From: Candidatus Thioglobus sp.
GTDB taxonomy: Bacteria > Pseudomonadota > Gammaproteobacteria > PS1 > Pseudothioglobaceae
NCBI GenBank assembly: GCA_029936515.1
Contig: JAPYSK010000003.1
Location: 1 to 64,000 of the forward strand
Length of the DNA: 64,000 bases
Direction of reading: 5' to 3'
In this document: one piece after another, positions 4,381 to 41,355 of the stretch
How the letters are laid out: each line of letters opens with the position of its first letter
Position numbering within the stretch: the first letter of the stretch is position 1
Position numbers and translations under genes: made by a program
The notes under the pieces: generated by a model
Told to the model about the DNA's origin: nothing
The model's input: the letters and a program-made list of their open reading frames with translations, nothing else
Databases searched by the model: none

Positions 4381-4418
4381 CCTTTGTTACTATTTCTTTT
4401 AGTACCTCAAATATTCAA

Positions 4419-6334: not shown

Positions 6335-6354
6335 ATTCTTTGAGAGTTAAATTA

Positions 6355-7323: not shown

Positions 7324-7358
7324 TAATTTTCTCTATATTTTAAAAATATCATATCCTA

Positions 7359-8627
7359 TTATAATCTGTCCAGAAGCGCATAATAAAGCATGCCGAGTTT
7401 CATACTTGGATTTCGAAGAAACCTTCCGCCAGGAAAACTTTGCCTTGGAATCTTAGCCATGATATCAAAAGTCTCTCCATCACCAGTTATCTTCTCAGAA
7501 ACTATTTTGCCAGAATAGCTTGCTAGAGCAACGCCTTGACCAGAATAGCCTTGAGCTGATAGAACTTTATCTTGATGAAGCGTTGTAAAAAATGGAAGAC
7601 GGTTCATCGTTATCGCAAGCTTACCTCCCCAAGCATAGTCAATTTTTACACCCTTAAGAAATGGATAAATCTTTTCTAAAGGATTTCTAACTATTGGAAC
7701 AATATTACTCGATAGTTCTTGTGAATAATTTTCACCGCCCCCAAAGAGTAAGCGTTTATCTGCACTCAATCGAAAATAATTAATAACAAATCTAGAGTCA
7801 GCAAATGCAATATCTTTTGGATTAATTTTTTGAACCGTCTTATCATCTAAAGTCTTGGTAGCAACGATATAGTTGTTCATTGGTAGTATTTTTGAAGTTA
7901 AGTTTTTTTCAAGATTACCAAGATAACCATTACAAGCAAGCACTACTCGATCTGCCTTAATAGAGCCTTCTTTGGTTATTACCTTCACATGGTCGTCGTT
8001 TACCTTATAACTTATTGCAGGGCTATTTTCATAGATTTTTGCACCTGCTGAGATTGCAGCTTTTGCAATTCCAAGAGCATAATTAAGTGGATGACAGTGT
8101 GCCTCACCCTCGTCATAACTGCCTCCATAATAAGTATCAGAGCCAGACGTCTCTCTCATCTCGTTATCATCTAGATACTGGATATCGTGGTAATCATAAT
8201 GTTCATTCATATGCTCAACATAATGCTGAGACTCTGAGCAATATTTTTGCTTATGATTAGGGTGAGCGATGCCTTTTTTATAGTCACACTGAATTTGGTA
8301 TTTATCAATTAAATCCTTGGCATGGTATTTTGATTTCTCACCAATTCCCCACAAAACTTTAGCATAATCTACCCCTAAAGTTTTTTCTAAATAAAATTGA
8401 TCTCTACGCATTCCGCCTGAAACTTGGCCGCCGTTAGCTCCAGATGCTCCGGAGGCCAACTTATCGGACTCAATAAGGAGAACATTAACGCCCTCTTTTG
8501 CCAAATAAAGAGCAGTCGATAAGCCCGTATAACCCCCACCAATTATGCAAACATCAGCCTCGACATCACTAACAAGATTAGGTTGATCTGTCTCTATATT
8601 GCGACTAGCTTGATAATAAGATTGCAC
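7359..8627 (-). CDS. FAD-dependent oxidoreductase, gamma-glutamylputrescine oxidase (PuuB)-like
   Basis: DADVCIIGGGYTGLSTAL, SGASGANGGQVSGG, DAO fold, 422 aa; polyamine gene context. Confidence 0.85.
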   Translation of the reverse strand: MQSYYQASRNIETDQPNLVSDVEADVCIIGGGYTGLSTALYLAKEGVNVLLIESDKLASGASGANGGQVSGGMRRDQFYLEKTLGVDYAKVLWGIGEKSKYHAKDLIDKYQIQCDYKKGIAHPNHKQKYCSESQHYVEHMNEHYDYHDIQYLDDNEMRETSGSDTYYGGSYDEGEAHCHPLNYALGIAKAAISAGAKIYENSPAISYKVNDDHVKVITKEGSIKADRVVLACNGYLGNLEKNLTSKILPMNNYIVATKTLDDKTVQKINPKDIAFADSRFVINYFRLSADKRLLFGGGENYSQELSSNIVPIVRNPLEKIYPFLKGVKIDYAWGGKLAITMNRLPFFTTLHQDKVLSAQGYSGQGVALASYSGKIVSEKITGDGETFDIMAKIPRQSFPGGRFLRNPSMKLGMLYYALLDRL

Positions 8628-8641
8628 TCTAAGAATTAAAT

Positions 8642-10015
8642 CTACTTTATAGATTTAACAGTCAAATCAAGGCACTTCCAAACCTTATTGATTATTTCAT
8701 CTATATGTTCATTGTTACAAATTAAAGGTGGTGCAATAACCATCTTGTTAGCGATTGCTCTCATTACTAAGCCATTTTCGTAGCAATAATCACGGCATCT
8801 TCCAACAATCTCTTTACTGTTTTCAAATCGCCTACAGTTATCTTTATCTTTAACGATTTCAATGGCTGCAAGCATTCCAAGACTGCGAGCCTCTCCAACC
8901 AATTCATGATCTTCCAAAGCTTTCCACTTACTCGCTAGATAAGGAGCAGTATTGTTTTTAACTTGATGCAATATGTTAGTTTTTTCCATCAACTCTAGGT
9001 TAGCCACTGCAGCTGCCATACATGTTGGGTGCCCAGAATATGTATAGCCATGTGCAAACTCTTGTTTGGCAGAGACTAATACATCTACCAGTTCGTCACG
9101 AACAATAACACCGCCAACTGGCAGATAGCCAGAGGTTACACCTTTTGCAAAAGGCATCAAATCAGGTTCAAAATTAAAGTGGCCAGAACCAAACCATTCA
9201 CCAGTTCTTCCAAAGCCACAAATAACTTCATCAGCAACCAATAATATATTTCGCTCTTTACAGATTCTACTTATCTCTGGCCAATATGTTTTTGGAGGAA
9301 TAATAACCCCTCCAGCCCCTTGAATAGGTTCGGCAATAAATGCTGCAACGCGATCTTCTCCCAGTTCATCAATTTTATTAGCCAAACTTTGGGCTACTTT
9401 TAGTCCAAATTCATCTGCATCAATTTTTCCACCTGCCTCTACGCATGCGTCGTAATAGTAGGGTTGATCTACATGCTCAATATCTGGAATAGGTAGTCCT
9501 CCCTGTGCGTGCATAGCACTCATTCCTCCTAAACTAGCGCCTGCCATTGTAGATCCATGGTAAGCATTTTTTCGACTAATGATTACAGATTTAGAAGGCT
9601 TCCCTTTCGCAGCCCAGTAATGTCTTACTAGCCTAACAACTGTGTCAATTGCCTCCGAACCAGAACCTGTAAAGTAAACTTTATCCATGCCTGGTGGCGT
9701 TTTATCTGCAATCATTTCTGATAACTTAATCGCAGATGGATGGCTCGAACCAAAGAAATTATTATAGTAAACAAGTTCCTTCATTTGCTCATTCACTGCA
9801 TCAATAATTGACTTCTGTCCATAACCCATGTTTACACACCATAGACCTGACATGCTGTCTAATATTTTCTTACCATCATTGTCATATATATAAACACCAT
9901 CTGCACGACTAATGATATGAGTTGCTTCAGGGTTATTTATGTAACTTAAATCGCTAAATGATTGAATGAGATGCTTAGCATTTTTTTGTTGAAGAGCCGA
10001 AGTACTTATAGCCAT
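8642..10015 (-). CDS. Class-III aminotransferase, putrescine/diamine-pyruvate transaminase-like (SpuC-like)
   Basis: PLP class III motifs (FTGSGSEAIDTVVRL, LLVADEVICGFGRTGEWFG, PFAKGVTSGYLPVGG). Supplied ORF runs to 10153, but the ATG at 10015 is preceded by AAAGGA and gives the conserved N-terminus. Confidence 0.9.
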   Translation of the reverse strand: MAISTSALQQKNAKHLIQSFSDLSYINNPEATHIISRADGVYIYDNDGKKILDSMSGLWCVNMGYGQKSIIDAVNEQMKELVYYNNFFGSSHPSAIKLSEMIADKTPPGMDKVYFTGSGSEAIDTVVRLVRHYWAAKGKPSKSVIISRKNAYHGSTMAGASLGGMSAMHAQGGLPIPDIEHVDQPYYYDACVEAGGKIDADEFGLKVAQSLANKIDELGEDRVAAFIAEPIQGAGGVIIPPKTYWPEISRICKERNILLVADEVICGFGRTGEWFGSGHFNFEPDLMPFAKGVTSGYLPVGGVIVRDELVDVLVSAKQEFAHGYTYSGHPTCMAAAVANLELMEKTNILHQVKNNTAPYLASKWKALEDHELVGEARSLGMLAAIEIVKDKDNCRRFENSKEIVGRCRDYCYENGLVMRAIANKMVIAPPLICNNEHIDEIINKVWKCLDLTVKSIK

Positions 10016-10215
10016 ATCCTTTCCTTTATAATAATAATATAAATCATCAATTTCAAATAACAAAAATAATGAATAAAGTTCGTCATTTGTATTTAGATGA
10101 TATAGTGTAGTCCATTTTTGCTTTTTGACAATAATTAATTTAATATATTCCATTCAAGAATTTTAATTCGACCTATTAATATTAATCAAAATAAATTATT
10201 AGTGAAAGTTAATCC

Positions 10216-11574
10216 ATGAAAAACATTGCAAAAAAATTTCTAGATTTACATCCAGAGTTGGAAAAAATTGAGTTTATATATGTAGACTTTAATGGCATAC
10301 CAAGAGGAAAAAACGCCTCACCAAAAACCCTAATAAAAGCATTCGATGGCGGTCTTAGGATGCCTATTTCAAGCTTTGTTCTGGATATCTGGGGTGACAA
10401 TCCTAAAGGAACTGGCTTGATTATGACAGGTGACGGTGATGCAATTTGTAGACCCGTTGCAAGTTCCCTTGCAGTAACGCCATGGAATTCTCGCAATACA
10501 GCTCAATGCTTAGTGAGCACGGAGGACGGTGATGGTAAACCTATTTTTGCCGACCCAAGGCATATACTTAGCAAGGTTCTGGATCGTTTTACTAAGCTAG
10601 GCCTCAAGCCGGTTATAGCTCCAGAGATGGAATTTTATCTTATTGATAATAAGCTTCAAGCTAATGGTCACCCCCAAACTCCCTTAATACCTGGCAGCCA
10701 CAGACGTTACCAGGACGTTCAATTACTCAACTTAAGCGAGATGGATGATTTTGAAGGTTTCTTTACACTCGTTGAAAAGAGCGCTCACTCGTTAGGAATT
10801 CCTGCAGAAACCGCAATCAAGGAATGCGCTCCTGGGCAATTTGAGATCAACCTGCTTCACCATGATGACGCTCTATTAATGGCTGACCAAACATTCTTAC
10901 TGAAACGCCTAATCAAAAATTGCGCTAGACAATTTAATATGAATGCCACTTTCATGGCAAAACCATTTTCTGATGAAGCTGGAAATGGTATGCATGTTCA
11001 TCTAAGTGTTGTCGATAAAGATGGCAATAATGTCTTTACTATGGATAAAAATAAGCAACCTCAGGGTCTCTTTTCTCAATCTATTGCAGGCCTTCTGAAA
11101 ACAACTCCTGACTTTTTATCTTTCTATGCCCCACACTCAAACTCTTATAGACGTCTAGTTCATAACGCTGATCACGCACCAACAACATTGAGCTGGGGTA
11201 ACGAGAATAGGACCGCCCTAATAAGACTGCCAGAAGCTTCCGCTGAAGCGACTAGGCTTGAGTTCCGTGTCGCTAGTGCCGACTCCAACCCCTACTTAGT
11301 ATTTGCATCAGTTCTTGCGAGCGTGTATGCTGGTATACAAGGTAAACTTCCGCTTGATAAAGAAACTATCGGCAATGCCCATGCACAACACCCACCATCA
11401 CTAGGTGTTACATGGAGGGAAGCCGTAGAGAAAACAAGTGTATCATCACTAGTAAAAGATTTTTTTGGAGAACAGTTTCAGCAATGCTATAAATGCGTTA
11501 AAGAGTCAGAAATAAAGAGATTTGAATCAACAATAACAGATTTTGAATATCACTCTTACTTAAGGTGTCTTTGA
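10216..11574 (+). CDS. puuA: Glutamine synthetase family protein, gamma-glutamylputrescine synthetase (PuuA)-like
   Basis: GS catalytic motifs (PEMEFYLID, GQFEINLLHHDDALLMADQ, NGMHVHLSV, NRTALIRLPEA) in a 452-aa PuuA-size protein. Confidence 0.85.
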   Translation: MKNIAKKFLDLHPELEKIEFIYVDFNGIPRGKNASPKTLIKAFDGGLRMPISSFVLDIWGDNPKGTGLIMTGDGDAICRPVASSLAVTPWNSRNTAQCLVSTEDGDGKPIFADPRHILSKVLDRFTKLGLKPVIAPEMEFYLIDNKLQANGHPQTPLIPGSHRRYQDVQLLNLSEMDDFEGFFTLVEKSAHSLGIPAETAIKECAPGQFEINLLHHDDALLMADQTFLLKRLIKNCARQFNMNATFMAKPFSDEAGNGMHVHLSVVDKDGNNVFTMDKNKQPQGLFSQSIAGLLKTTPDFLSFYAPHSNSYRRLVHNADHAPTTLSWGNENRTALIRLPEASAEATRLEFRVASADSNPYLVFASVLASVYAGIQGKLPLDKETIGNAHAQHPPSLGVTWREAVEKTSVSSLVKDFFGEQFQQCYKCVKESEIKRFESTITDFEYHSYLRCL

Positions 11575-11653
11575 TGACAACTTCTGAATCGTGGTTACAA
11601 AAGAGCCTTTTAATTAGCAATAATTAAAAGTTTAATAATAAAGGAGAAAAACG

Positions 11654-12754
11654 ATGAAAAACAAAATAAAATATCTACTCATTGCGAGTGTTCTGACCTG
11701 TTCAGCGCAAATCGCTGTAGCGGCAGCGGAGGAAAAGGTTGTACACGTCCTCAACTGGTCAGACTATATTGACGAACAAGTGTTGACGAATTTTACTGAT
11801 GCAACCGGCATTAAAGTAGTCTATGACGTGTTTGACTCTAATGAAGTATTGGAAGCTAAACTCTTAGCAGGTGGTTCAGGCTATGACGTGGTTGTGCCTT
11901 CAGCAAGTTTCTTAGCTCGTCAGATACAGGCAGGTGTGTTTCAAAAACTTGACAAGTCTAAATTAAGCAATATTGGTAATATGTGGGATGATGTTGAAGA
12001 ACGTGTTGCCCAGTTTGGCCCACTGAATGACTACTCTGTCAACTGGCACTGGGGTACAACAGGAATTGGTTACAACGAAGGCATGATCAACGAAAGAATG
12101 GAGAATGCGCCAACAGATTCTCTGGCGATGATCTTCGACCCAGACGTTGTATCTAAATTCGCTGATTGTGGTGTTCATTTTTTGAATGCGCCAACAGAAA
12201 TCATTCCTGCGGCTTTGTTATATATTGGTGAAGATCCAAAATCAACAGATACCGAAGTTATCAAAAAAGCAGAAGGCGTTCTTGCCAAAGTTCGTCCATA
12301 TATTCAGAAATTCCATTCATCGCAATATATTGATTCACTTGCCAATGGTGATATCTGTTTAGTTGTTGGTTGGTCAGGCGATATCTTTATGGCTCAATAT
12401 GCAGCCTGGGATGCTGAGAATGATGTTGAAATTGTTTATGCAATCCCTAAAGAAGGTGCAGTCATTTGGTTCGACCAATTGGCTATTCCTAAGGACGCTC
12501 CACATCCTGATAATGCCCATGAATTTATCAACTTTATAATGATTCCTGAGCAGATTGCAATAGCAACTAACTACGTTTGGTATGCCAATGGTAATTTAGC
12601 TTCTCAGGCATTTTTAGATGAAGAGCTTCTTAATGATCCAGCAGTTTACCCAACACCTGAAGTTCTTGAAGGTTTGTATACTGTACCAACATACGATGCT
12701 GCAACACAACGTGTTCTGACACGTACTTGGACTAAGATTACAACAGGATACTAA
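11654..12754 (+). CDS. potF: Polyamine ABC transporter periplasmic substrate-binding protein (PotF/SpuD-like)
   Basis: Signal peptide; VLNWSDYID, TGIKVVYDVFDSNEVLEAKLLAGGSGYDVVVPS, VVGWSGDIF, WFDQLAIP. Confidence 0.93.
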   Translation: MKNKIKYLLIASVLTCSAQIAVAAAEEKVVHVLNWSDYIDEQVLTNFTDATGIKVVYDVFDSNEVLEAKLLAGGSGYDVVVPSASFLARQIQAGVFQKLDKSKLSNIGNMWDDVEERVAQFGPLNDYSVNWHWGTTGIGYNEGMINERMENAPTDSLAMIFDPDVVSKFADCGVHFLNAPTEIIPAALLYIGEDPKSTDTEVIKKAEGVLAKVRPYIQKFHSSQYIDSLANGDICLVVGWSGDIFMAQYAAWDAENDVEIVYAIPKEGAVIWFDQLAIPKDAPHPDNAHEFINFIMIPEQIAIATNYVWYANGNLASQAFLDEELLNDPAVYPTPEVLEGLYTVPTYDAATQRVLTRTWTKITTGY

Positions 12755-12770
12755 AACTGCGCTATCATTA

Positions 12771-12806
12771 CCTCCATGGTTTTTTACCATGGAGGTATTT
12801 TTTTTT
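12771..12806 (+). terminator. Intrinsic terminator/attenuator between potF and potG
   Basis: CCTCCATGG-TTTTTTA-CCATGGAGG perfect 9-bp stem followed by TATTTTTTTTT. Confidence 0.85.
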
Positions 12807-12818
12807 ATGTTATAGGTT

Positions 12819-13949
12819 ATGACAGAGACTACTACAACTGAACCGTGGCTGGATTCAAACCAGAAACCCTACATTCAAATAGAAAACGTTACAAAAAAAT
12901 TTGGCGACTTTACGGCCATAGATAATTTATCCTTAGATATATATAAAAATGAGTTCTTCTCATTGTTAGGACCTTCGGGATGTGGAAAAACAACACTACT
13001 TCGAATGCTAGCTGGGTTTGAAAGATTTACCGAAGGTAGAGTTCTTGTTGATGGTGAAGATATCACTGAAATCCCACCCCATCTAAGACCTATCAATATG
13101 ATGTTTCAGTCATATGCACTGTTCCCACATATGACTGTTGAAAAGAATATCGCTTTTGGTTTAAAGCAAGACAAAATGCCAGAAAATCTCATCAATCAAA
13201 GAGTTGAAGAGATGCTTGAATTAGTTGAACTTACTGATTTTGCCAAACGCAAACCTAGCCAACTTTCTGGCGGTCAAAGTCAACGCGTTGCGCTCGCAAG
13301 GAGTTTAGCTAAACAACCCAAGTTGTTGCTTTTGGATGAACCGTTAGGAGCACTTGATAAGCGCCTGAGAGAACAAACCCAGTTCGAGTTAATGGACATT
13401 CAGGAAAAATTAGAAGTAACCTTTGTTATTGTCACCCATGACCAAGAAGAGGCAATGACTGTTTCTAGTAGGATTGGTGTAATGGATTCAGGGAAGTTAA
13501 TCCAAGTTGCCACACCTACACAGATTTACGAAGCACCTATAAACAGAGAGGTGGCAGACTTTATTGGTGACGTTAATATCTTTAAAGGTGTCTACAAGGG
13601 TCAAGACGAAAAGGGAACTCAATTACTCTCTGAAGATTCAAAGTCGATTATCTATGCAACTCAAAAAGTTGATGTGCCAGTTGGTAATAGAATATGGTTT
13701 GCACTAAGACCAGAAAAACTTGAAATAACAAAAAAATTACCAGAAGTTGATTGCAATATTTTGAAAGGCAAAATTGAAGATATCGGCTATGGAGGTAGTT
13801 TTTCAACCTATCACGTTAAACTCGAAAACGGTAGGCAACTTACCGCCATTCGTGCTAACCGTGAACGAACCGCTGAGCACCATTTAACCTGGGGAGATGA
13901 GGTTTATCTTCATTGGGCCCCCCATTCCGCTGTTGTTTTACTTTCTTAG
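12819..13949 (+). CDS. potG: Polyamine ABC transporter ATP-binding protein (PotG/PotA)
   Basis: Walker A GPSGCGKTTLLRM, signature LSGGQSQRVALARSL, Walker B LLLLDEPLGALD, TOBE C-terminus. Confidence 0.92.
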   Translation: MTETTTTEPWLDSNQKPYIQIENVTKKFGDFTAIDNLSLDIYKNEFFSLLGPSGCGKTTLLRMLAGFERFTEGRVLVDGEDITEIPPHLRPINMMFQSYALFPHMTVEKNIAFGLKQDKMPENLINQRVEEMLELVELTDFAKRKPSQLSGGQSQRVALARSLAKQPKLLLLDEPLGALDKRLREQTQFELMDIQEKLEVTFVIVTHDQEEAMTVSSRIGVMDSGKLIQVATPTQIYEAPINREVADFIGDVNIFKGVYKGQDEKGTQLLSEDSKSIIYATQKVDVPVGNRIWFALRPEKLEITKKLPEVDCNILKGKIEDIGYGGSFSTYHVKLENGRQLTAIRANRERTAEHHLTWGDEVYLHWAPHSAVVLLS

Positions 13950-13955
13950 TTTTTT

Positions 13956-14873
13956 ATGAATATAAAAGAAATACAAATCCCAACCTTTCTGAAACGCATT
14001 TTTAACGGAAGAAACACCGTGATCTCAATTCCATACTTGTGGTTACTTTTTCTGTTTTTATTTCCATTTATTATCGTCCTTAAGATAAGTTTTGCTCAGC
14101 CCGTCCTCGCAATGCCTCCTTATACAGATCTTCTTAAGTGGGGTGAGTCGTGGTGGCCGACAATTCAGGCTAGCTTTGACAGTTATCTTTTTCTTTTTAG
14201 TGACTCACTCTATATCCATGCCTATCTTTCTAGCCTAAAAATTGCAATCATTTCAACAATACTAACTTTAATAATTGGCTATTCAATTGCCTACAGCGTA
14301 GCAAAAGCGCCCACTCAATGGAGAGCTATATTGTTGATGCTGATTATTCTTCCGTTCTGGACCTCCTTCCTCATAAGAGTTTATGCATGGATTGGAATCT
14401 TAAAGACTGAAGGATTATTAAACTTAGCATTAACGACTATTGGAATTATCGATAAGCCTCTTATTATTATGAATACTGATCTCGCAGTCTATATCGGTAT
14501 TGTCTATTCCTATCTTCCCTTCATGATTTTGCCTCTGTATGCAAACTTAGAAAAAATGGATATGAGTTTATTAGAGGCCGCCGCTGACCTTGGTTGTCGT
14601 CCCTTAAAAACCTTTTGGACAGTGACTATACCTTTATCTCTTCCTGGAATATTAGCAGGCTGTTTTCTAGTCTTTATTCCGGTAATGGGTGAGTTTGTTA
14701 TCCCAGATTTACTTGGTGGCTCAGAAACCCTTATGATTGGCAAAGTTCTTTGGGGTGAATTCTTCTATAACAGAGACTGGCCAGTAGCTTCGGCAGTTGC
14801 TATCATATTGCTAGCAATCCTAGTGGTGCCAATTATGTTCTATCAAAAATCACAAGAAAAGGCAATATCATGA
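13956..14873 (+). CDS. potH: Polyamine ABC transporter permease (PotH/PotB)
   Basis: BPD permease EAA motif (LLEAAADLGCRPLKTFWTVTIPLSLPG), six-TM profile, operon position. Confidence 0.92.
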   Translation: MNIKEIQIPTFLKRIFNGRNTVISIPYLWLLFLFLFPFIIVLKISFAQPVLAMPPYTDLLKWGESWWPTIQASFDSYLFLFSDSLYIHAYLSSLKIAIISTILTLIIGYSIAYSVAKAPTQWRAILLMLIILPFWTSFLIRVYAWIGILKTEGLLNLALTTIGIIDKPLIIMNTDLAVYIGIVYSYLPFMILPLYANLEKMDMSLLEAAADLGCRPLKTFWTVTIPLSLPGILAGCFLVFIPVMGEFVIPDLLGGSETLMIGKVLWGEFFYNRDWPVASAVAIILLAILVVPIMFYQKSQEKAIS

Positions 14874-15655
14874 AAAAATTTGGTAACTTCAATATCGTTG
14901 CCTTAGTCGTAGGATTTTCATTTCTGTATATTCCTATCATTCTACTAATATTATTTAGCTTTAATGAATCAAGATTGGTGACTGTTTGGGGTGGTTTTTC
15001 AACAAAATGGTACGTTGAGCTGATGCAGAACCAAGGCATAAAAGATGCCGCCTGGGTTACCATTAAGGTTGCTTTTATTTCCTCTACAGTAGCGACAGCC
15101 CTTGGCACTATAGCCGGCCTTGTTATGACACGTTTTGGAAACTTTAGAGGAAGAACACTTTTCTCAGGAATGATCTATGCACCTATGGTAATGCCAGAAG
15201 TAATCATTGGTTTGTCTATCTTGCTTATGTTTGTGACCTTGGCAATTGACAGAGGTATGCTTACTGTGACACTCGCCCATATAACCTTCTCAATGTGCTA
15301 TGTCGCAGTGATTATTCAGTCAAGAATGTCAAGTTATGATGACAGTATTACTGAAGCCGCTCTCGACTTAGGGTGTACACCTTTTCACACCTTTCGACTA
15401 ATCACTCTGCCTATTATTATGCCGGCAGTGGTTTCTGGGTGGTTATTATCATTTACCCTGTCTCTTGATGATTTGGTCATCGCAAGCTTTGCCTCAGGAC
15501 CTGGTGCTACAACGCTTCCAATGAAAATATATTCAATGGTTAGACTCGGTGTAACACCGGAAATAAATGCCGTCTCAACTATCTTAGTTGGACTTGTTAC
15601 ACTTGGAGTAATCACCGCTTCAATCATTGGCAGGAGACAAAAAAACACTAATTAA
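14870..15655 (+). CDS. potI: Polyamine ABC transporter permease (PotI/PotC)
   Basis: EAA motif (ITEAALDLGCTPFHTFRLITLPIIMP); 4-nt overlap with potH. Confidence 0.92.
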   Translation: MKKFGNFNIVALVVGFSFLYIPIILLILFSFNESRLVTVWGGFSTKWYVELMQNQGIKDAAWVTIKVAFISSTVATALGTIAGLVMTRFGNFRGRTLFSGMIYAPMVMPEVIIGLSILLMFVTLAIDRGMLTVTLAHITFSMCYVAVIIQSRMSSYDDSITEAALDLGCTPFHTFRLITLPIIMPAVVSGWLLSFTLSLDDLVIASFASGPGATTLPMKIYSMVRLGVTPEINAVSTILVGLVTLGVITASIIGRRQKNTN

Positions 15656-15739
15656 AGTCTCACAAACTTAAGAATACACAACTCAATAGACTATTATAAT
15701 TAGCCTCTTAAAATATCAATCTAGAAATAAGGATAAATT

Positions 15740-17194
15740 ATGCTCAAAAATACTAAACTTCTAAAAGCGCATGGCTACATCAATGGTGAGTGGGTTGGCG
15801 ATAACACTGAATCTCGCTTTGAAGTTACTAACGCTTATACAAATGAAGTAATCAGTACGCTTCCTGAAATGGGCAAAAAAGAAACCAATGATGCCATAGA
15901 AGCAGCCAATATTGCTTGGCCAAATTGGCGAAGTAAAACCGCAAAAGAAAGATCAGTAATCTTAAAAAAATGGTTTGATTTAATTATGGAAAATCAAGAA
16001 GATTTAGCTATATTAATGACAGCAGAACAAGGAAAACCAATCGCAGAAGCTAGAGGCGAAGTAGCATATGGCGCATCATTTATAGAATGGTTTGCAGAGG
16101 AAGGCAAACGAACGTATGGCGACGTAATTCCAACCCCTTCAAATGACCGTAGAATAATAGTGATTAAGCAACCAATAGGAGTTGTAGCTTCAATTACACC
16201 TTGGAACTTTCCGATTGCTATGATTACAAGAAAATGTGCACCTGCACTTGCAGCTGGCTGTCCAGTTGTAATCAAGCCTGCTTCAGAAACCCCTCTTTCA
16301 GCTCTAGCAATTGCTGAGCTAGCAGACCAAGCAGGCATCCCCAAGGGGATTCTCAATGTTGTAGTTGGAACTCACTCTAGCGAGATCGGATTAGCATTAA
16401 CTGACAGTAAAATTGTGCGTAAACTTTCTTTTACTGGCTCAACTGCTGTTGGCAAAATTCTTACTCGTAATTGTGCTGACACAATGAAAAAGGTCTCTAT
16501 GGAACTTGGAGGAAATGCTCCGTTTATTGTTTTTGATGATGCGGACCTAGATTCTGCAGTTTCAGGTGCGCTGATATCAAAATTTAGAAATACCGGGCAA
16601 ACATGCGTTTGTAGTAATCGTATCCTTGTTCAGGAAGGAATTTATGATGAGTTTGTCACTAGGCTTGCTGATTCTGTGAAAACACTTAATGTTGGAAATG
16701 GCATGGAAGATGGCATTAATCAAGGCCCGTTAATCAGTCAAAAAGCACTCGATAAAGTTAAGGACCATATTTCTGATGCGGTAGATAGAGGTGCTGTAAT
16801 TGTTGCTGGTGGAAAACCTCATCAGAGTGGCGGAACAATGTTTGAGCCAACCGTTATTAGTAATGTAGATAGCTCAATGAAGGTAGCATCAGAAGAAACG
16901 TTTGGGCCACTTGCGCCTATCTTTAAGTTCTCTACTGAACAAGAGGCAATTGATATGGCAAATGATACTGAATTTGGACTTGCCTCATACTTCTACACAA
17001 GCAATGTGAATCGAATATGGCGGGTTTCAGAGGCTTTAGAATATGGAATGGTAGGAGTAAATGAGGGCGTTATATCAAATGAAGTTGCACCTTTTGGAGG
17101 TGTCAAGGAGTCTGGCTTAGGACGAGAAGGTTCGCACTACGGAATTGACGATTTCCTTGAGCTTAAGTATATATGTATGGGTGGCTTAAAGTAA
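15740..17194 (+). CDS. gabD: NAD(P)-dependent succinate/glutarate-semialdehyde dehydrogenase
   Basis: ALDH motifs ITPWNFPIAMITRK, FTGSTAVGK, MELGGNAPFIVFDDAD, GQTCVCSNR; GabD/DavD-like length and N-terminus. Confidence 0.9.
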   Translation: MLKNTKLLKAHGYINGEWVGDNTESRFEVTNAYTNEVISTLPEMGKKETNDAIEAANIAWPNWRSKTAKERSVILKKWFDLIMENQEDLAILMTAEQGKPIAEARGEVAYGASFIEWFAEEGKRTYGDVIPTPSNDRRIIVIKQPIGVVASITPWNFPIAMITRKCAPALAAGCPVVIKPASETPLSALAIAELADQAGIPKGILNVVVGTHSSEIGLALTDSKIVRKLSFTGSTAVGKILTRNCADTMKKVSMELGGNAPFIVFDDADLDSAVSGALISKFRNTGQTCVCSNRILVQEGIYDEFVTRLADSVKTLNVGNGMEDGINQGPLISQKALDKVKDHISDAVDRGAVIVAGGKPHQSGGTMFEPTVISNVDSSMKVASEETFGPLAPIFKFSTEQEAIDMANDTEFGLASYFYTSNVNRIWRVSEALEYGMVGVNEGVISNEVAPFGGVKESGLGREGSHYGIDDFLELKYICMGGLK

Positions 17195-20748: not shown

Positions 20749-21606
20749 ATGAGTAATAAATTTGGCTTTAAAAAGTCATTAATTGTTTTTGCTGTTGCAT
20801 TACTATCATTAAACATGACTGCCAAGGCAGGTGCGGTTTATGATTATATCCAAGCAAACAATGAATTAATGATTGCAACAGATGCAAACTGGGCACCATT
20901 CTCATACATTGATGATGATGGAGTGATGCAAGGATTCGATGTCGATGTTGGTAGAGAAATTGCTAAACGTATGGGCGTAGAAGCCCGCTTTATAACTCCT
21001 GATTGGGATGTTATCACTGCAGGAAACTGGAACATGCGTTGGGACGTTTCTGTTGGCTCTATGACTCCAACTGCGAGTCGTTCTGAAGTATTGAACTTTC
21101 CAGCAACTTACTACTACACACCTGCAGCCTTTGCTGTTCACACTGATTCACCTGTGACAACATTAGCTGGATTAAATGGCAAAAATGTCTGTACAACGGC
21201 AGCGTCTACTTGGGAGATGTATCTTCAGGGTGACCTAGATATGCTTAATGCTCCAGCGTTTACTTATGACGTTACACCGGGCACAATTACCTCTTTGAAG
21301 GATGGTGCAATGTGTGCGGATGACACTCGTTTAGGTGCAGGCGTTCGTAATGATGGTTTTATTGATTCTGTTCCAATGATTCAAGGTGCAATAGAGGCTG
21401 GTTATCCAATTCGTTTCTTAGGAGATCCGGCTTTTCATGAGCCTCTTTCATTAGCGACTGATTTGGGCAATAATGACCCTGAACTAGATGCTGAACTTGC
21501 TAGAATCATAGCTGAAATGCAGAAGGACTACACCTTGAGTTTGTTGTCAATTCAGCACTTTAAAAATGCAGATGGTACTTCTGAAGACTACACTTTAGCT
21601 TACTAA
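20749..21606 (+). CDS. Amino-acid ABC transporter periplasmic substrate-binding protein
   Basis: Signal peptide; family-3 SBP: ANNELMIATDANWAPFSYIDDDGVMQGFDVDVGREIAKRMG. Confidence 0.9.
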   Translation: MSNKFGFKKSLIVFAVALLSLNMTAKAGAVYDYIQANNELMIATDANWAPFSYIDDDGVMQGFDVDVGREIAKRMGVEARFITPDWDVITAGNWNMRWDVSVGSMTPTASRSEVLNFPATYYYTPAAFAVHTDSPVTTLAGLNGKNVCTTAASTWEMYLQGDLDMLNAPAFTYDVTPGTITSLKDGAMCADDTRLGAGVRNDGFIDSVPMIQGAIEAGYPIRFLGDPAFHEPLSLATDLGNNDPELDAELARIIAEMQKDYTLSLLSIQHFKNADGTSEDYTLAY

Positions 21607-21648
21607 TAGGAATTGTTAGTTAGCTTTAGTTAGAGTTTAGACAAAGGT

Positions 21649-22614
21649 ATGTTCGTCGATACCGTTATTGAAGATAAGGCGCTGCATAAACCAGTATTCC
21701 TTATCGGTTTATCAGTAACGGTATTGGCGATTTTCTTTGCCCTTAATTTTACAAACACCCTTTTTGGTGAATTCCTTAGACCTGTTATAGGAGACCCCAC
21801 AGAAAGCGGTTTTTTTGGTCGTTTAGCAGTTTCACTTGTTCTAACAATAATATTTGTACTTAACTTATTAGCAATAAGTTTTACTAGGCTAAAAGTTCAA
21901 ATATTAATCGTTTGGGTAGAATTGCTTCTTCTTTTCCTGGCCTTTGCCTATTCTTTTGATCTCAAAATGTCGTTTATCCAGAGCAGGATTCCGCTCATGA
22001 TCTCTCGGGGGCTATTTACGACAATTTATATTTCAGCAATCTCAATCGTTATTGCGACCGTAATTGCCGTCATAGGTGCCATTGCAAAACTTTCGAATAA
22101 CGGCTTTGCTTATGCGATTTCCAGTTTTTATACTTCTCTATTTAGAGGCCTTCCACTTCTTTTGCAACTTTTCCTAATCTATAAAGGGCTACCACAACTC
22201 GGTTTTATGGTCGACGCAGTGCCTGCAGCCATCACCGCCCTGTCACTTTGTTATGGTGCCTATATGACAGAGATCTTCCGTGCAGGAATACAGAGCATAC
22301 CTAAAGGCCAATGGGAGGCTTCTAGGGCTCTAGGTTTTAAATTTAACCTTATCCTTCGCAAGATTATTTTGCCTCAAGCCATACCAATTATTATTCCTCC
22401 AACTGGAAATCAGTTTATCGCCATGCTAAAAGATAGCTCTCTTGCCTCTGTTCTTGGGGTTTGGGAGTTAATGTATCTCGCTAGAACCTTAGGTCAAAGA
22501 GATTTCAGACACATGGAAATGCTCCTAACAGCTGCAATGATCTACTGGGCTCTAACAATTGTGCTCGAGGTAATTCAGGCTCGAATTGAAAAAAAATACA
22601 AACAAAAAAGTTGA
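21649..22614 (+). CDS. Amino-acid ABC transporter permease (HisM/GlnP family)
   Basis: HisMQ motif [29 protein letters not shown]-terminal extra TMs. Confidence 0.9.
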
Positions 22615-23387
22615 TGATGGATACAAAAACTAATATCCAAAATAACACTGAAATGACTCCAGTCATTTCTCTCAAAGGAGTCAATAAGTGGTATGGAGAT
22701 TTTCAGGCTCTATCCAACATCGATCTCGAAATTAAACTCAAGGAGAAGATTGTAATTTGTGGTCCTTCTGGTTCTGGAAAATCTACCTTAATTAGATGCA
22801 TTAATCGCCTTGAAGCTCATCAAGAAGGCAAAATTCATGTTAGCGGTATAGAGCTACACGAAAGAATGAAAGATATTGATATTGTTCGCCAAGACATAGG
22901 AATGGTCTTCCAGAATTTTAACTTGTTTCCACACTTAACTGTTTTAGAAAACTGCATGGCGGGCCCAAATTGGGTTCGAGGTATCGAAAAAAATGAAGCT
23001 AAAGAAAGAGCCATTGCAATGCTAGAGCAAGTCAAGATTCCTGAGCAAGCAGATAAATATCCTGACCAACTTTCAGGCGGTCAGCAACAACGCGTAGCAA
23101 TTGCAAGAAGTCTATGTATGCAACCCAAGGTCATGCTGTTTGATGAGCCAACTTCAGCGCTAGACCCTGAAATGGTTTCAGAGGTTTTAGATACCATGAT
23201 TGAGCTTGCAAATAGCGGGATGACAATGATTTGTGTTACTCATGAGATGGGCTTTGCTCGTCAAGTTGCTGATAGGATTGTGTTTATGGCGGATGGAGAA
23301 ATTGTTGAACAAAATACTCCAGAAGAATTCTTCAATAACCCTCAACATGATCGAACTAAAGTTTTTCTTGATCAAATTCTTAAGTAA
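22611..23387 (+). CDS. Amino-acid ABC transporter ATP-binding protein (GlnQ family)
   Basis: [44 protein letters not shown]; 4-nt overlap with permease. Confidence 0.93.
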
Positions 23388-23391
23388 GAAG

Positions 23392-24465
23392 TTATTGTTT
23401 TCTGAAATAGTCTTCAAAAACATCAACAACAAACCTAATATCTTTTTCACTAACCCCTAGGTGGCATACTAGCCTACCTCTATCTAGACTAGCAATAAGA
23501 ATCTTTCTGTCAAAAAGAAAATTCTCTAAAGGTAACCGATGTTCCTTTGGACAATTAACAAAAACCATATTGGTTTGGCTCTCACCATACTCAACCTTTA
23601 ACTCTGCTATTTTTGATAGGCCAGTAGCCAACAACTTCGCATTATCGTGATCGTGTTGGAGCCTCCCAATATTATTCTTAAGGGCATACATTCCACAAGA
23701 AGCTATAACACCAACTTGTCTCATACCACCTCCTAACATCTTCCGTAAACGAATAGCTTTATTAATAATAGTTTGATCGCTTACTAAAAGAGAGCCGACT
23801 GGTGCTCCTAAACCTTTAGATAAACATATAGAGACACTATCAAAACTACCTACTAAAGCACTCAATGACAAACCTGAATGGATATGAGCATTAAATAAAC
23901 GAGCTCCATCCAAGTGAACTTTTAGACCTCGCCTATGAGCCTCAAGTACAAGCGTTTCAAGTTCATCCTGAGGTTGCACCTTTCCAGAAAAAGTGTTCTC
24001 TAAACAAAGCAGCTTGGTTACTGCATAATGCGGATCATCATCCTTTATTTGACTGAGCATATCGTTTAAATTCATACTTCCAGATTCAGACATATCAATA
24101 GGACAAATTCCAACCCCTCCTAGAACAGAAGCACCTCGAGCTTCATAGAGATTGGTATGGTAATCTCGACCAATCAATACCTCATCACCCCTCTGACAAT
24201 GGACAAGAATAGCCGTTAAATTACTCTGAGTCCCGCTAGGAAAAAATAAACTCGCCTCTTTACCCAAAAGCTCTGCTGCATATTCTTGAAGCTCAATTAC
24301 TTCTTTATCTTCTTCATAAACATCATCGCCAAGCTTTGCATTTTCAATGCATTGAAGCATTTCTTTGGATGGCAAAGTAACAGTGTCACTTCGAAAATCA
24401 ATTGGATTTTCAAGTTCACGTATTTCAGGATTATTAGTGTTTCTTTTATATTGGTTCATATCCAA
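23392..24465 (-). CDS. ltaE: Low-specificity L-threonine aldolase
   Basis: FRSDTVTLPSKEML, LHLDGARLFNA, SICLSKGLGAPVGSLL. Confidence 0.88.
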   Translation of the reverse strand: MDMNQYKRNTNNPEIRELENPIDFRSDTVTLPSKEMLQCIENAKLGDDVYEEDKEVIELQEYAAELLGKEASLFFPSGTQSNLTAILVHCQRGDEVLIGRDYHTNLYEARGASVLGGVGICPIDMSESGSMNLNDMLSQIKDDDPHYAVTKLLCLENTFSGKVQPQDELETLVLEAHRRGLKVHLDGARLFNAHIHSGLSLSALVGSFDSVSICLSKGLGAPVGSLLVSDQTIINKAIRLRKMLGGGMRQVGVIASCGMYALKNNIGRLQHDHDNAKLLATGLSKIAELKVEYGESQTNMVFVNCPKEHRLPLENFLFDRKILIASLDRGRLVCHLGVSEKDIRFVVDVFEDYFRKQ

Positions 24466-24472
24466 TTACTTC

Positions 24473-25129
24473 TTAAGGCTGATACTCTGGGTAAGCAAGA
24501 GTAGCAACCAAGTGAGTTCTTGATTCTGTACCGCCATTTAAAGCCGTATGATAACCACGCGTATCAGTGAAATAAACTGAACCATCTGCAGGTAAATGGG
24601 TGCAGTGGTGGTTAACAATAAGCAAAGCCCCAGGGTTTGTATAAATTGGAATATGGATTCTTGGCTCAGGGTCTCTATGCCAAGAATTGCAATTATAGCT
24701 ATCCTTTTCAAGTATTCGAACCCTGCCAATAGGGTATCGAGCACATAGCTCGTTATGGATAGTTTCAAAATAAGTACCTTTAAAAATATCCACGAGCTCA
24801 CTAAATAAAGTTTCATCAACTAGCTCGTCTTTTGACACCTCTTTATAGCTTTCATCTACCCGAGTATAGTATCGACCAACAAGATCTTTATCTGACTCAG
24901 CTGAGCTATCTTTTCTTCGAGTCATTGCTAGCGCATGAAAACCTGAAGCAGCAGTTTTAAATTCTGACTTAGCTTTAACCTCATCAAGTGCTTTGCGCAT
25001 TTTTTTGATATCAAACTTTAGACTCAGTTTAATAATGTGTTCATTGCCTTTAAAAGAAGCCACTGATTCAATATCAACTTTCTTATTGATATATGAATTT
25101 AATTCTTGTGTGTCATCTGAAATACTCAT
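24473..25129 (-). CDS. Aspartyl/asparaginyl beta-hydroxylase-like 2OG/Fe(II) oxygenase
   Basis: HxD (WHRDPEPRIHIPI), distal H (GYHTALNGG) and R (SRTHLV) arranged as in the Asp/Asn hydroxylase fold; 8 nt upstream of ltaE. Confidence 0.7.
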   Translation of the reverse strand: MSISDDTQELNSYINKKVDIESVASFKGNEHIIKLSLKFDIKKMRKALDEVKAKSEFKTAASGFHALAMTRRKDSSAESDKDLVGRYYTRVDESYKEVSKDELVDETLFSELVDIFKGTYFETIHNELCARYPIGRVRILEKDSYNCNSWHRDPEPRIHIPIYTNPGALLIVNHHCTHLPADGSVYFTDTRGYHTALNGGTESRTHLVATLAYPEYQP

Positions 25130-25177: not shown

Positions 25178-25603
25178 TTAAAAAGGTTTAACTACAACAA
25201 GAATGATAATACCAATAAGAAGTACCACAGGAATTTCATTAAACCAACGATAAAAAGTATGCGAACGAGTATTTTTATCTTTAGCAAAAACTCTCACTAA
25301 ATAACCACAATAAAAATGGTAAGCAATTAGAATAGCAACTAAAACTAGCTTAAGCTGGAGCCAATACTGATTACTATAAGCTTCCCAGGCATAGCCCTGC
25401 AACATCCACCAACCCATTAAAGTCGTAACAATAAAGCTAGGCATCATAATACCCTTATAGAGTTTTCGCTCCATTACCTTGAAGCGCTCTATACTAATTT
25501 CATCATCAGCCATAGCGTGATAAACAAAAAGTCGCGGCAAGTAAAACATTGCAGCAAACCAAGTAATGACAGTCAAAATGTGAAAAGCCTTAATCCAAAG
25601 CAT
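25178..25603 (-). CDS. hemJ: Protoporphyrinogen oxidase HemJ (UPF0093/CopD-like membrane protein)
   Basis: WIKAFHILTVITWFAAMFYLPRLFVYHA ... ME.KLYKGIM.PS ... FRWFNE.P signature. Confidence 0.88.
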   Translation of the reverse strand: MLWIKAFHILTVITWFAAMFYLPRLFVYHAMADDEISIERFKVMERKLYKGIMMPSFIVTTLMGWWMLQGYAWEAYSNQYWLQLKLVLVAILIAYHFYCGYLVRVFAKDKNTRSHTFYRWFNEIPVVLLIGIIILVVVKPF

Positions 25604-37608: not shown

Positions 37609-38802
37609 ATGCTTGAAAAAAAACACATCGGCCAATCTACTAAAAGTATTTGGGGTGGAGAACAAGAACATGAACTTTATGAACGATCAACACAAGTTCC
37701 AGTTGTTCATAGTGTTTCATTTGGTTACAAAGATATTGATACTTGGCATAAAGTCGCTCTGGAAGAGGCCCAAGGATTTATATATTCTCGCAATGCTAAC
37801 CCAACAGTTCGCGCCTTTGAAGACAAGTTAAAAGAACTAGAAGGTGCCCAAGCAGCAACCAGTTTCTCCTCAGGTATGGCAGCCATTAGTAACACCTTGG
37901 CTACATTTTTAAAGCCAGGTGAGCGAATTGTTTCAATTAAAGATAGCTATGGGGGAACTAATGTCATTTTTAATGAGTTTTTACCACCACTAAATATTGA
38001 GGTTAGTCTCTGTGAAACTGGTGATTATGAACAAATAGAAGCTGAAATAGCTAAGGGTTGTAAGGTCTTATATTTAGAAACACCGACCAACCCAACCATT
38101 AAAATTACAGACATCGAGCGCTTAAGCATGGCAGCTAAAAAAGTAGACGCGCTAGTTATTGTTGATAATACTTTTGCTACACCAATTAATCAATCCCCGC
38201 TAGAGCTTGGTGCTGATATCGTTCTGCACTCTGCCTCCAAATACCTAGGTGGACATGCAGATGCGCTTGGAGGGGTAATTTGCGGCAATAAAGACTTAGT
38301 AAAGAAAGTTCATCACTACCGTGAAATAAACGGTGCTAGCCTAGCGCCAATGGATGCATATAGTCTCTTAAGAGGTATGAAAACATTAAAGCTTCGAGTT
38401 CAAAGGCAAAATGAAAGTGCAATGATAATTGCTAAATACTTACAAAGCCATCCTGCAGTTGAGCAGGTGAACTACCCTGGATTAGAGTCTCATCCTGATC
38501 ATGATATTGCCAAGAAACAAATGATTGGTGGCTATGGTGGAATGTTAAGCTTTTCTGTCAAAGGCGGCTTAGAATCAATTAAAAAATTTCTACCAAAACT
38601 TGAATACGCTCATATGGCAGCTAATTTAGGTTGCGTTGAAACTGTAGTTGGCCCTCCATTTACAACAAGCCATGTCGAATGTAGTGCAGAAGAGCGAATG
38701 GCTGCTGGAATCCCTGAAGGCTTAGTAAGATACTCAACCGGTATTGAGGATGTAGAGGACTTAATTGCTGATTTAGATCAGGCATTTAAAGCAATCTCTT
38801 AA
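37609..38802 (+). CDS. Cystathionine gamma-synthase/lyase family PLP enzyme
   Basis: YSRNANPTVRAFEDKLKELEGA, ETPTNPTIKITDI, DNTFATP, HSASKYLGGHADALGG (PLP Lys). Confidence 0.88.
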   Translation: MLEKKHIGQSTKSIWGGEQEHELYERSTQVPVVHSVSFGYKDIDTWHKVALEEAQGFIYSRNANPTVRAFEDKLKELEGAQAATSFSSGMAAISNTLATFLKPGERIVSIKDSYGGTNVIFNEFLPPLNIEVSLCETGDYEQIEAEIAKGCKVLYLETPTNPTIKITDIERLSMAAKKVDALVIVDNTFATPINQSPLELGADIVLHSASKYLGGHADALGGVICGNKDLVKKVHHYREINGASLAPMDAYSLLRGMKTLKLRVQRQNESAMIIAKYLQSHPAVEQVNYPGLESHPDHDIAKKQMIGGYGGMLSFSVKGGLESIKKFLPKLEYAHMAANLGCVETVVGPPFTTSHVECSAEERMAAGIPEGLVRYSTGIEDVEDLIADLDQAFKAIS

Positions 38803-38820
38803 GAAATTAAGGAGAATTCA

Positions 38821-39999
38821 ATGAAACAAGAAAGAAGAAGATTCAGTAAAGAAGAGTACCTTGATAGGCAATTAAAGGTTCGCAAGTCAATGGATGCTTC
38901 AAATGTGGATGTCTTAATTGTCTATGACCCTGCCAATATGTTTTGGTTGACTGGCTATGATGGTTGGTCATTTTATGTTCACCAATGCGTTGTCATTTCA
39001 ACTGACGGAGGACTTTTTTGGTATGGCAGAGGAATTGATGCAAAGGGCGCTGAACTTACGACTGACCTTGACCTAAATAATATCCTAGCATATCCAGATG
39101 AATACGTCATGAGCCCTGAGAGACATCCAATGGAGCTCCTTGCAAACATCTTAAAAGAAAAGGGCTTAAATAAAAAAAGAATCGGCCTAGAAAAAGATAA
39201 TTATTATTTTTCAGCTAGAGCTGCTGAATCGTTATATAGCAGTCTACCTGATGCAGTATTTAGCGATCAGACAGGTCTCGTAAACTGGCAAAGAGCAGTA
39301 AAATCTGAAACCGAGATCACCTACATGAAAAGAGCCGGAAAGGTCATTGAAGGTATCTATGAAAGAGTTATGGAGGTTGCAGAGCCTGGAATGAGAAAAA
39401 ATGACTTGGTTGCTGAAATAATGCATGCAGGTGCTCACGGTCATCAAGGCCATTATGGTGACTACACTTCTTTTGTTCCTCTTATTGGCGCTGGGGAAGA
39501 AGCTGCAGCGTGTCACATGACATGGAATGATGAGCCATTAAAAAATAATGAGGGTATGTTTTTAGAGTTAGGAGGGGCATACGCAAGATATCATTGTCCT
39601 TGCTCAAGAACTTTATATTTAGGAAAACCGCCTCAACAATATTTAGATATCGAAAAGGTTATAAATGAATGCATAGAGAATGCAATTGAGATGTTTAAGC
39701 CGGGCAATACTTGTGCCCAAATTTCAGACAACTTTACAGCAACTCTGAAAAAGCATGGTTATGAAAAAAATAATCGCTGTGGTTACCCTATCGGCTGTAG
39801 TTATCCTCCTGATTGGGGCGAGCGTACGATGAGTTTACGCGGAACAGATCAAACTGTACTTGAAGAAAACATGACATTTCATTTTATGCCTGCTATTTGG
39901 TTTGATGACTGGGGTTTTGAAATGACGGAGAGTATTCGCGTCGCTCAGAGCGGCGGCGAATGCCTCTCAAGCGTACCTAGACAACTACTAGTTAAATAG
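38821..39999 (+). CDS. M24-family, ectoine-hydrolase-like (DoeA/EutD) protein
   Basis: WLTGYDGWSFYVHQ, VNWQRAVKSETEITYMK, MRKNDLVAEI, YPIGCSYPPDWGERTMSL, TFHFMPAIWFDDWGFEMTESI, as in the DoeA/EutD group. Confidence 0.8.
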   Translation: MKQERRRFSKEEYLDRQLKVRKSMDASNVDVLIVYDPANMFWLTGYDGWSFYVHQCVVISTDGGLFWYGRGIDAKGAELTTDLDLNNILAYPDEYVMSPERHPMELLANILKEKGLNKKRIGLEKDNYYFSARAAESLYSSLPDAVFSDQTGLVNWQRAVKSETEITYMKRAGKVIEGIYERVMEVAEPGMRKNDLVAEIMHAGAHGHQGHYGDYTSFVPLIGAGEEAAACHMTWNDEPLKNNEGMFLELGGAYARYHCPCSRTLYLGKPPQQYLDIEKVINECIENAIEMFKPGNTCAQISDNFTATLKKHGYEKNNRCGYPIGCSYPPDWGERTMSLRGTDQTVLEENMTFHFMPAIWFDDWGFEMTESIRVAQSGGECLSSVPRQLLVK

Positions 40000-40020
40000 A
40001 AGTTAAAAAACTATCAAGAC

Positions 40021-40512
40021 TTACTTGGATACGCTTGATCGTCTAATCAAACTATCCGGAACCTTATCGGTATCCTTAATTCTGTCTAGGACTGCATAAC
40101 TAAAATAACGTCTGAGCCCAATATCTGCCTTTAAGATTCTTTTAAGGAAATCTTGGTAGTCTGCAACATCTTTGACAAGAACTTTTAAAATGTAATCAAG
40201 TCCTCCACCAACGGACCAGCATGAAAGCACTTCATCAAAGCCCATTATTGCTTCTTCAAACCGAGCAAACTGGCCTTGCTTATGACTCTCTAACTCAACT
40301 TCAGTAATTACAAGATGGAAATTACTTAAAAATGGAGATGACAGCTTTGCACCATAGCTTTCAATGATTCCAGCTTCCTCTAGTCTTTGAAGTCTGTCCC
40401 AAGAAGGAGTAAGCGATAGATTGAGTTTATCAGCCAGCGCAGTTTTAGTAATCCTACCCTCACTCTGAAGGATGGAAAGTATCTGAATATCTCTTTCATC
40501 AAGCTTGTACAT
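40021..40512 (-). CDS. Lrp/AsnC-family transcriptional regulator (DoeX/AsnC-like by context)
   Basis: LDERDIQILSILQSEGRITKTALADKLNLSLTPSWDRLQRLEEAGII HTH plus RAM domain. Confidence 0.9.
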   Translation of the reverse strand: MYKLDERDIQILSILQSEGRITKTALADKLNLSLTPSWDRLQRLEEAGIIESYGAKLSSPFLSNFHLVITEVELESHKQGQFARFEEAIMGFDEVLSCWSVGGGLDYILKVLVKDVADYQDFLKRILKADIGLRRYFSYAVLDRIKDTDKVPDSLIRRSSVSK

Positions 40513-40620
40513 AGAGATATTATCGCCCTAAATAAAATACAAATTAGCAATAAAATTCAAATTAATGTGAATTTTTCAGAATAATCATGACTTTATAGGC
40601 TTTATTAGGCCTAAGAACTT

Positions 40621-41355
40621 CTAGTTATTTCTTTTAGCTATTATCTGAGAAATCTGATCAAAAGTAGCCTGGTTTGAGGTAAAGACAGGTTTACCAATAG
40701 CGGCTTCTATTTCAGGAATAATTTCTGCAGATCTCATTGCAGTGCATGAAATAAAGAGCGCGTCAGCTTCATCATGAGTTGCCGCCTTGGCAGCTGAAAT
40801 AATCTCATTTGGAGGAAGCATAGCTACGTCTCTGTCGTCACTCATATCCATATACATTGAAGATACTATCTCAACACCATTTCTTTGTAAATAGTCTCTC
40901 AGCAGGGAGGACACCTCTTCACTATATGGAGTTAGAATACTGACCTTTTTAAAGCCTCTTGCTTTAAAGTTTTTAACAACTGCTTGAGAGGTAGTTAAAA
41001 CTTTTGCAGTTGGCTTACTTTCTTGAATTGCAAGCTCGATTGCCTCATCTCCGACAATAGAAGATGAAGAAGTACAATTAAAGACAACCAAGTCAAGATC
41101 ATAATTGGGAAGTATTCCAGCTGAAACTTCAGTCAAATCATCTCCAATTGCGGCTAAAGACTCTGGCGTCATTGGATTAGCAAAATGAATTCGATTGAAA
41201 TAGAAATCATAGTCTGGATTTTGATCCGTATACATTCTTACAAAGTCACGCTCAAAAGTAAAATCTGTATTTAAAACAATCAGTCCTACAGAGGGTCTCT
41301 CACTATTTCTAGTTAAAGTATCTGAGATATGATATTTTTTTGATTCAATAGTCAT
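40621..41355 (-). CDS. Asp/Glu racemase / arylmalonate decarboxylase / maleate isomerase superfamily protein (EutA-like)
   Basis: VVFNCTSSSSIVG and ADALFISCTAMRSAEIIPEIE, the two Cys-containing motifs of the superfamily. Confidence 0.8.
   Translation of the reverse strand: MTIESKKYHISDTLTRNSERPSVGLIVLNTDFTFERDFVRMYTDQNPDYDFYFNRIHFANPMTPESLAAIGDDLTEVSAGILPNYDLDLVVFNCTSSSSIVGDEAIELAIQESKPTAKVLTTSQAVVKNFKARGFKKVSILTPYSEEVSSLLRDYLQRNGVEIVSSMYMDMSDDRDVAMLPPNEIISAAKAATHDEADALFISCTAMRSAEIIPEIEAAIGKPVFTSNQATFDQISQIIAKRNN

Follow-up and report, generated by a model that had tools for sequence, protein, structure and literature searches.

A 2-oxoglutarate oxygenase paired with an aldolase in marine bacteria hints at cleavage of trimethyllysine-like amino acids

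In the 64,000-nucleotide stretch of DNA analysed here (the window), which comes from a marine bacterium of the SUP05 clade, a gene for an Fe(II)/2-oxoglutarate (2OG) oxygenase, HYD, lies immediately upstream of a gene for a PLP-dependent aldolase, ALD. The pair, whose earlier observation we confirm, is found again in unrelated marine bacteria next to genes for betaine degradation, a hint at trimethyllysine-like food molecules. HYD and ALD likely function as hydroxylase and aldolase, while the original interpretation as an import-hydroxylate-cleave pathway gains partial support. Should trimethyllysine or a related compound be the substrate, which is doubtful, the pair would belong to a new bacterial import and degradation route that supplies glycine and one-carbon metabolism in SUP05 and further marine bacteria. 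The hydroxylase-aldolase logic is already known from carnitine synthesis and guanitoxin; the HYD oxygenase family is uncharacterised, and the open-access literature searched yielded no description of this family, its catabolic setting, or its joining with an aldolase.

Results and Discussion

HYD resembles Cpz10 and AspH

The pair and its flank comprise the following features:

24473..25129, minus strand: HYD, 218-aa Fe(II)/2OG oxygenase with Cpz10/AspH-like double-stranded β-helix; predicted amino-acid β-hydroxylase
24671..24679, minus strand: HYD H151-R152-D153, HxD iron ligands, corresponding to Cpz10 H115/D117
24518..24550, minus strand: HYD H194 (third iron ligand, Cpz10 H160) to R204 (2OG carboxylate, Cpz10 R170)
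25178..25603, minus strand: hemJ, upstream flank of HYD
23392..24465, minus strand: ALD, PLP-dependent L-(allo-)threonine aldolase/GntG-family protein, 355-357 aa; predicted to convert a β-hydroxy amino acid into glycine and an aldehyde

HYD displays the hallmarks of the Fe(II)/2OG oxygenase superfamily, i.e., HxD...H, the 2OG-binding Arg, and the double-stranded β-helix. H151, D153, H194, and R204 are invariant in an alignment of 45 homologues; they make up the HxD...H motif and distal Arg noted originally. The proposed Asp/Asn-hydroxylase fold is supported by an AlphaFold2 model (pLDDT 83, pTM 0.85), for which Foldseek retrieved the caprazamycin β-hydroxylase Cpz10 (7v4f, E 1e-11), L-proline cis-4-hydroxylase (4p7x, E 4e-5), and, more weakly, AspH (E 2.3e-3). 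Cpz10, also the best PDB relative of HYD (E 1.6e-15), uses H115/D117/H160 as Fe ligands and R170 for 2OG binding (PMC9814697). Fold, iron ligands, and 2OG Arg are thus common to both proteins at about 25% identity by structure alignment, whereas the N-terminal region of HYD falls outside the sequence alignment and Cpz10 is part of an antibiotic pathway. The substrate of L-proline cis-4-hydroxylase is a free amino acid, but this enzyme is a longer protein with 15% identity to HYD; we know of no aldolase partner for it.

In the suggested profile check, PF05118 (Asp_Arg_Hydrox) scored HYD at 18.4 bits (E 0.002), under the Pfam gathering score of 22.6. Likewise, TIGR02410 (trimethyllysine dioxygenase; curated cut-off 268.3 bits) gave no match to HYD at E<=1. 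Judged by sequence, HYD belongs to a 2OG-oxygenase family other than TIGR02410, and it is probably a β-hydroxylase acting on an imported amino acid. Its nearest solved relative, Cpz10, has no free-amino-acid substrate, and opp-type peptide transporters are common beside HYD, so that HYD might target a residue attached to a peptide or carrier, or else a specialised metabolite, in the way that Cpz10 modifies a nucleoside-antibiotic intermediate. We consider this quite improbable, since the window and the neighbours examined contain no biosynthetic assembly genes and the neighbours look catabolic.

HYD-linked aldolases form a dedicated clade

ALD starts at either a TTG (23392-24465, 357 aa) or an ATG codon (to 24459, 355 aa), and the gap to HYD is therefore 7 or 13 nt; gene order, shared strand, and ORF coordinates agree with the original prediction, which gave a gap of 8 nt. 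ALD exceeds the curated cut-offs of two NCBIfam models, namely low-specificity L-threonine aldolase (NF007825, 369 bits versus 312), in line with its proposed identity, and the GntG family (NF041359, 388 bits versus 230). K215, which we take to be the PLP lysine, as well as H101, H144, D184, R187, and R329, to which active-site roles are presumptively assigned, are conserved to at least 97% in linked and unlinked copies. For GntG of the guanitoxin pathway, a retro-aldol step has been reported (PMC10367076). The match of ALD to the ordinary threonine aldolase model and its catabolic-looking setting set it apart from GntG, and no other guanitoxin genes were recognised beside HYD-ALD.

The HYD-linked aldolases group in a single clade, separate from the remaining aldolases that HYD genomes encode. 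On the aldolase tree, the linked and unlinked labels require 2 changes, and none of 500 shuffles was equally low. Three Kiloniella copies are the only unlinked ones inside the clade. No residues separating the clade from other aldolases emerged under the criterion used (at least 80% in linked copies and at least 70% in unlinked copies). Away from HYD, the Kiloniella aldolases of this clade (L162, L163, L176) adjoin phosphonate-uptake-type genes, i.e., a phosphonate-binding solute-binding protein (SBP) and DUF1045 (domains tested in L163).

The pair is conserved in Pseudothioglobus and recurs in distant lineages

HYD was found in 23 of 29 Pseudothioglobus genomes, the window's own among them, and the same search returned a single weak match (E 5e-5) from a different genus. 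Of 22 loci with a sufficiently long contig, 21 have ALD next to HYD; in the exception (L015, or L035 in the other collection), the genome's ALD lies on another contig. In G009 (L009/L030), ALD and hemJ are each split into two ORFs by assembly error or decay, with HYD intact. Four genomes (G003, G016, G020, and G025) possess ALD without a HYD match. In G003 and G016, HYD is cleanly absent between ALD and hemJ while the rest of the locus is intact; ALD therefore persists there without HYD.

A genome scan returned 205 relatives, and 80 were kept. Among 61 divergent loci, 28 have ALD directly downstream of HYD in the same orientation, including distant alpha- and gammaproteobacteria. In 11 of these 28 pairs, the genes overlap by 4 bp (gap -4), which together with the dedicated aldolase clade supports an operon pairing across lineages. 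The recurrence in Pseudothioglobus and in distant alpha- and gammaproteobacteria argues that the pairing is not due to chance. Persistence of ALD where HYD was not found, and its being the only close aldolase match in G000 and in the Pseudothioglobus genomes searched, would suit a mere housekeeping threonine aldolase in SUP05 with HYD as an unrelated neighbour. This is highly improbable given that the genes are adjacent, and often overlapping, in such distant lineages, and that G086 holds both aldolase kinds, a linked one and an unlinked second copy outside the clade.

Of 296 evenly sampled Rhodobacterales genomes, seven contain HYD, with ALD adjacent in 7/7 (G087 corresponds to locus L101). 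The remaining 33 of the 61 divergent loci have no adjacent aldolase; the original concern that the oxygenase might occur mostly without an aldolase neighbour thus receives a mixed answer, as adjacency holds for about half of the divergent set and for nearly all Rhodobacterales and Pseudothioglobus loci examined. In 385 genomes from the class of a Kiloniella genome, HYD was found in nine: four have ALD adjacent (L214, L215, L217, and L218), two Kiloniella carry the clade aldolase elsewhere in the genome, one has only a short contig, and two that are small and AT-rich (1.2-1.3 Mb, 28-30% GC), taken to be SAR11-like, harbour 45-47% identical HYD homologues without ALD. L211-L213 are loci of small AT-rich alphaproteobacterial genomes with HYD homologues at this identity and no aldolase; in L211, HYD lies near genes for serine hydroxymethyltransferase and porphobilinogen synthase. 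Among 369 gammaproteobacterial genomes, HYD was found in two, that of the window and a second one, and the plasmid collection searched gave one weak Streptomyces match only. Many HYD homologues of Rhizobiaceae, Granulosicoccus, and SAR11-like genomes are without an adjacent aldolase. HYD genomes that have no adjacent ALD mostly possess another aldolase; no close aldolase match was found in G058, G060, G061, G070, and G072, which are mostly draft genomes.

Neighbouring genes suggest quaternary-ammonium catabolism

As controls for 47 HYD loci, we used 16 loci around further aldolases from the same genomes. The commonest HYD partner is an MmgE/PrpD family protein (e.g., L049, L084, L194, and L195), found near HYD in 22/47 loci versus 0/16 controls (p=3e-4), followed by the opp transporter (17/47 versus 0/16, p=0.003) and MttB (15/47 versus 0/16, p=0.006). 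GbdR, aldehyde dehydrogenase (ALDH), Rieske, and sarcosine-oxidase-like enzymes are rarer; taken alone, GbdR (p=0.27) and DAO19 (p=0.30) recur without significant enrichment over the control loci. Because of these neighbours, the HYD-ALD surroundings suggest quaternary-ammonium catabolism, and the betaine-like context envisaged at the outset is upheld by MttB, GbdR, ALDH, Rieske, and DAO/Sox genes.

Two loci illustrate this arrangement. L195, from the same genome as L047 but longer, contains MmgE, an FMN oxidoreductase, MttB, GbdR, ALDH, ALD, HYD, LysR, and an SBP-permease-ATPase transporter orthologous to that of the window. In L194 (L050 genome), soxA- and soxB-like genes come next after HYD-ALD-MttB-DAO19, and its DAO19 and soxB-like genes match a second locus of Pseudothioglobus G001 (L126), which also contains ALDH and a Rieske gene. 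In L047, the ALDH gene comes after the pair in the same orientation; in L046, it is next to the pair but in the opposite orientation. The ALDH subfamily was rejected as proof of betaine-aldehyde oxidation; the best model for L047 is BADH, with a score well under the cut-off. The Rieske oxygenase of L072 is nearest to carnitine monooxygenase. MttB-superfamily matches, some partial, number one to ten per genome in 23 Pseudothioglobus genomes (G000-G022), with four in G000. Glycine-betaine and methylamine catabolism modules (MttB, Rieske oxygenase, soxA/soxB, GbdR) have neighbour genes in common with some HYD loci, but to our knowledge contain no hydroxylase-aldolase front end.

MmgE/PrpD does not fit into a trimethyllysine route and counts against our best explanation. 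HYD might instead act on a betaine or other non-α-amino acid, or hand its product to MmgE/PrpD for dehydration, epimerisation, or decarboxylation, the aldolase being frequent but secondary. The position of MmgE/PrpD directly after HYD in those Rhizobiaceae loci that have no aldolase, the absence of a close aldolase match in G058, G060, G061, and G070, and loss of the SBP residue D161 outside SUP05 (see below) speak for this reading. We nevertheless judge it unlikely in view of ALD adjacency and stop/start overlap in many lineages, the dedicated aldolase clade, and the coexistence of MmgE with ALD in several HYD loci.

A convergent ABC transporter may supply the substrate

The predicted complete amino-acid ABC transporter (20749-23387) is indeed present, all three components being encoded convergently with ALD:

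20749..21606, plus strand: SBP, family-3 solute-binding protein
21649..22614, plus strand: PERM, polar-amino-acid ABC permease, 321 aa, the sole permease gene
22611..23387, plus strand: ATPase of the amino-acid ABC transporter, TTG start called

SBP_bac_3, an HEQRo-type permease domain, and the ATPase in one operon identify a polar amino-acid ABC transporter, and the stops of ATPase and ALD are 4 nt apart. An orthologous transporter near HYD-ALD also occurs in Oceanospirillaceae and Amylibacter. Co-occurrence of transporter and HYD was discarded as evidence in Rhodobacterales, where the transporter is found in 3/296 genomes, one with HYD, which is too few. This convergent transporter would import the HYD substrate.

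Residue roles in SBP are assigned by analogy to LAO, whose reference sequence was confirmed. SBP keeps the equivalents of D11 (side-chain Asp) and R77 (carboxylate Arg) and has Trp at both side-chain-stacking positions (LAO Y14 and F52). The LAO Q122 position is aromatic in the SBPs (Trp, Phe, or His), with Trp in the window. The α-amino-binding D161 is not conserved outside SUP05, the alignment being uncertain there.

Retention of Asp11 would also fit a route in which the same two steps convert a free amino acid that is not methylated, such as lysine, ornithine, or arginine, with the betaine genes as separate neighbours. Further, the window contains a polyamine/GABA-type block (5618-17194) with agmatinase, aminotransferase, a PotFGHI-like transporter, and succinate-semialdehyde dehydrogenase (15740-17194), which could absorb 4-aminobutanal/GABA. 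Trp at both stacking positions and the enrichment of MttB and MmgE near HYD in other lineages make a non-methylated substrate unlikely. A glutarate dioxygenase gene, GlaH (over cut-off), followed by an lhgO-looking gene (3409-5621), adjoins this block.

A putative import-hydroxylate-cleave-oxidise-demethylate route

In our best explanation, the ABC transporter would import an L-amino acid, which HYD would hydroxylate at the β-carbon, converting 2OG and O2 into succinate and CO2. PLP-dependent ALD would then split the β-hydroxy amino acid by retro-aldol cleavage into glycine and an aldehyde. As judged from the recurrent neighbours, an aldehyde dehydrogenase may oxidise the aldehyde to a carboxylate with a methylated ammonium group, which MttB- or Rieske-type and DAO/Sox-type enzymes would demethylate. 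For this catabolic route as a whole, we see roughly even chances. Cationic and probably quaternary-ammonium α-amino acids are the leading substrate class, and a quaternary-ammonium amino acid as the actual substrate is plausible, at slightly less than an even chance.

With N-ε-trimethyllysine, the route would yield glycine and 4-trimethylaminobutyraldehyde, and thereafter γ-butyrobetaine. Free trimethyllysine occurs in seaweeds (PMC3890275), cleavage of its 3-hydroxy form by threonine aldolases is reported (PMC8085414), and γ-butyrobetaine dioxygenase homologues exist in the genus; trimethyllysine is therefore the leading single candidate, if a tentative one. Equally doubtful, though worth stating, is a bacterial route for importing and degrading trimethyllysine, or a quaternary-ammonium amino acid related to it, whose hydroxylase differs in family from the eukaryotic enzyme.

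Carnitine biosynthesis (TIGR02410 enzyme plus hydroxytrimethyllysine aldolase) follows the same chemistry, i.e., β-hydroxylation by a 2OG oxygenase and PLP-dependent retro-aldol cleavage to glycine and an aldehyde. The parallel drawn originally holds for this logic only, whereas the enzyme family differs, HYD lying outside TIGR02410. Moreover, HYD and ALD are gene-linked in bacteria and lie beside demethylation genes, and are therefore probably catabolic.

Homologues of the carnitine enzymes proper, all over the NCBIfam curated cut-off, include:

L227 9089-10204; L229 337-1464; L276-L280: trimethyllysine dioxygenase homologues, Pseudothioglobus
L226 8442-9539: γ-butyrobetaine dioxygenase homologue

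Trimethyllysine dioxygenase homologues, which are of eukaryote type, occur in 12 of 25 Pseudothioglobus genomes searched, the L227 copy between clpA- and lptG-like genes, and γ-butyrobetaine dioxygenase-related matches are found in other genomes of the genus besides that of L226. Nine genomes contain both HYD and a trimethyllysine dioxygenase homologue, so HYD would be redundant there if trimethyllysine were its substrate too. A complementary distribution of the two oxygenases was rejected as not significant in view of this coexistence. G003 and G016, which are without HYD, both carry the dioxygenase homologue, which is not significant but compatible with a function common to both oxygenases. 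G000 gave no γ-butyrobetaine-dioxygenase-sized match and no curated trimethyllysine dioxygenase match. G006, counting ALD and ALDHs, encodes homologues of every carnitine-synthesis step from trimethyllysine. A carnitine operon around its γ-butyrobetaine dioxygenase homologue was dismissed, as the nameable neighbours are housekeeping genes; two others, at 9617-10534 and 14940-15833, matched no named family.

Elsewhere in the window, 37609-41355 encodes a DoeA-like ectoine hydrolase (577 bits versus a cut-off of 613), EutA-like genes, and a cystathionine-γ-synthase-family gene.
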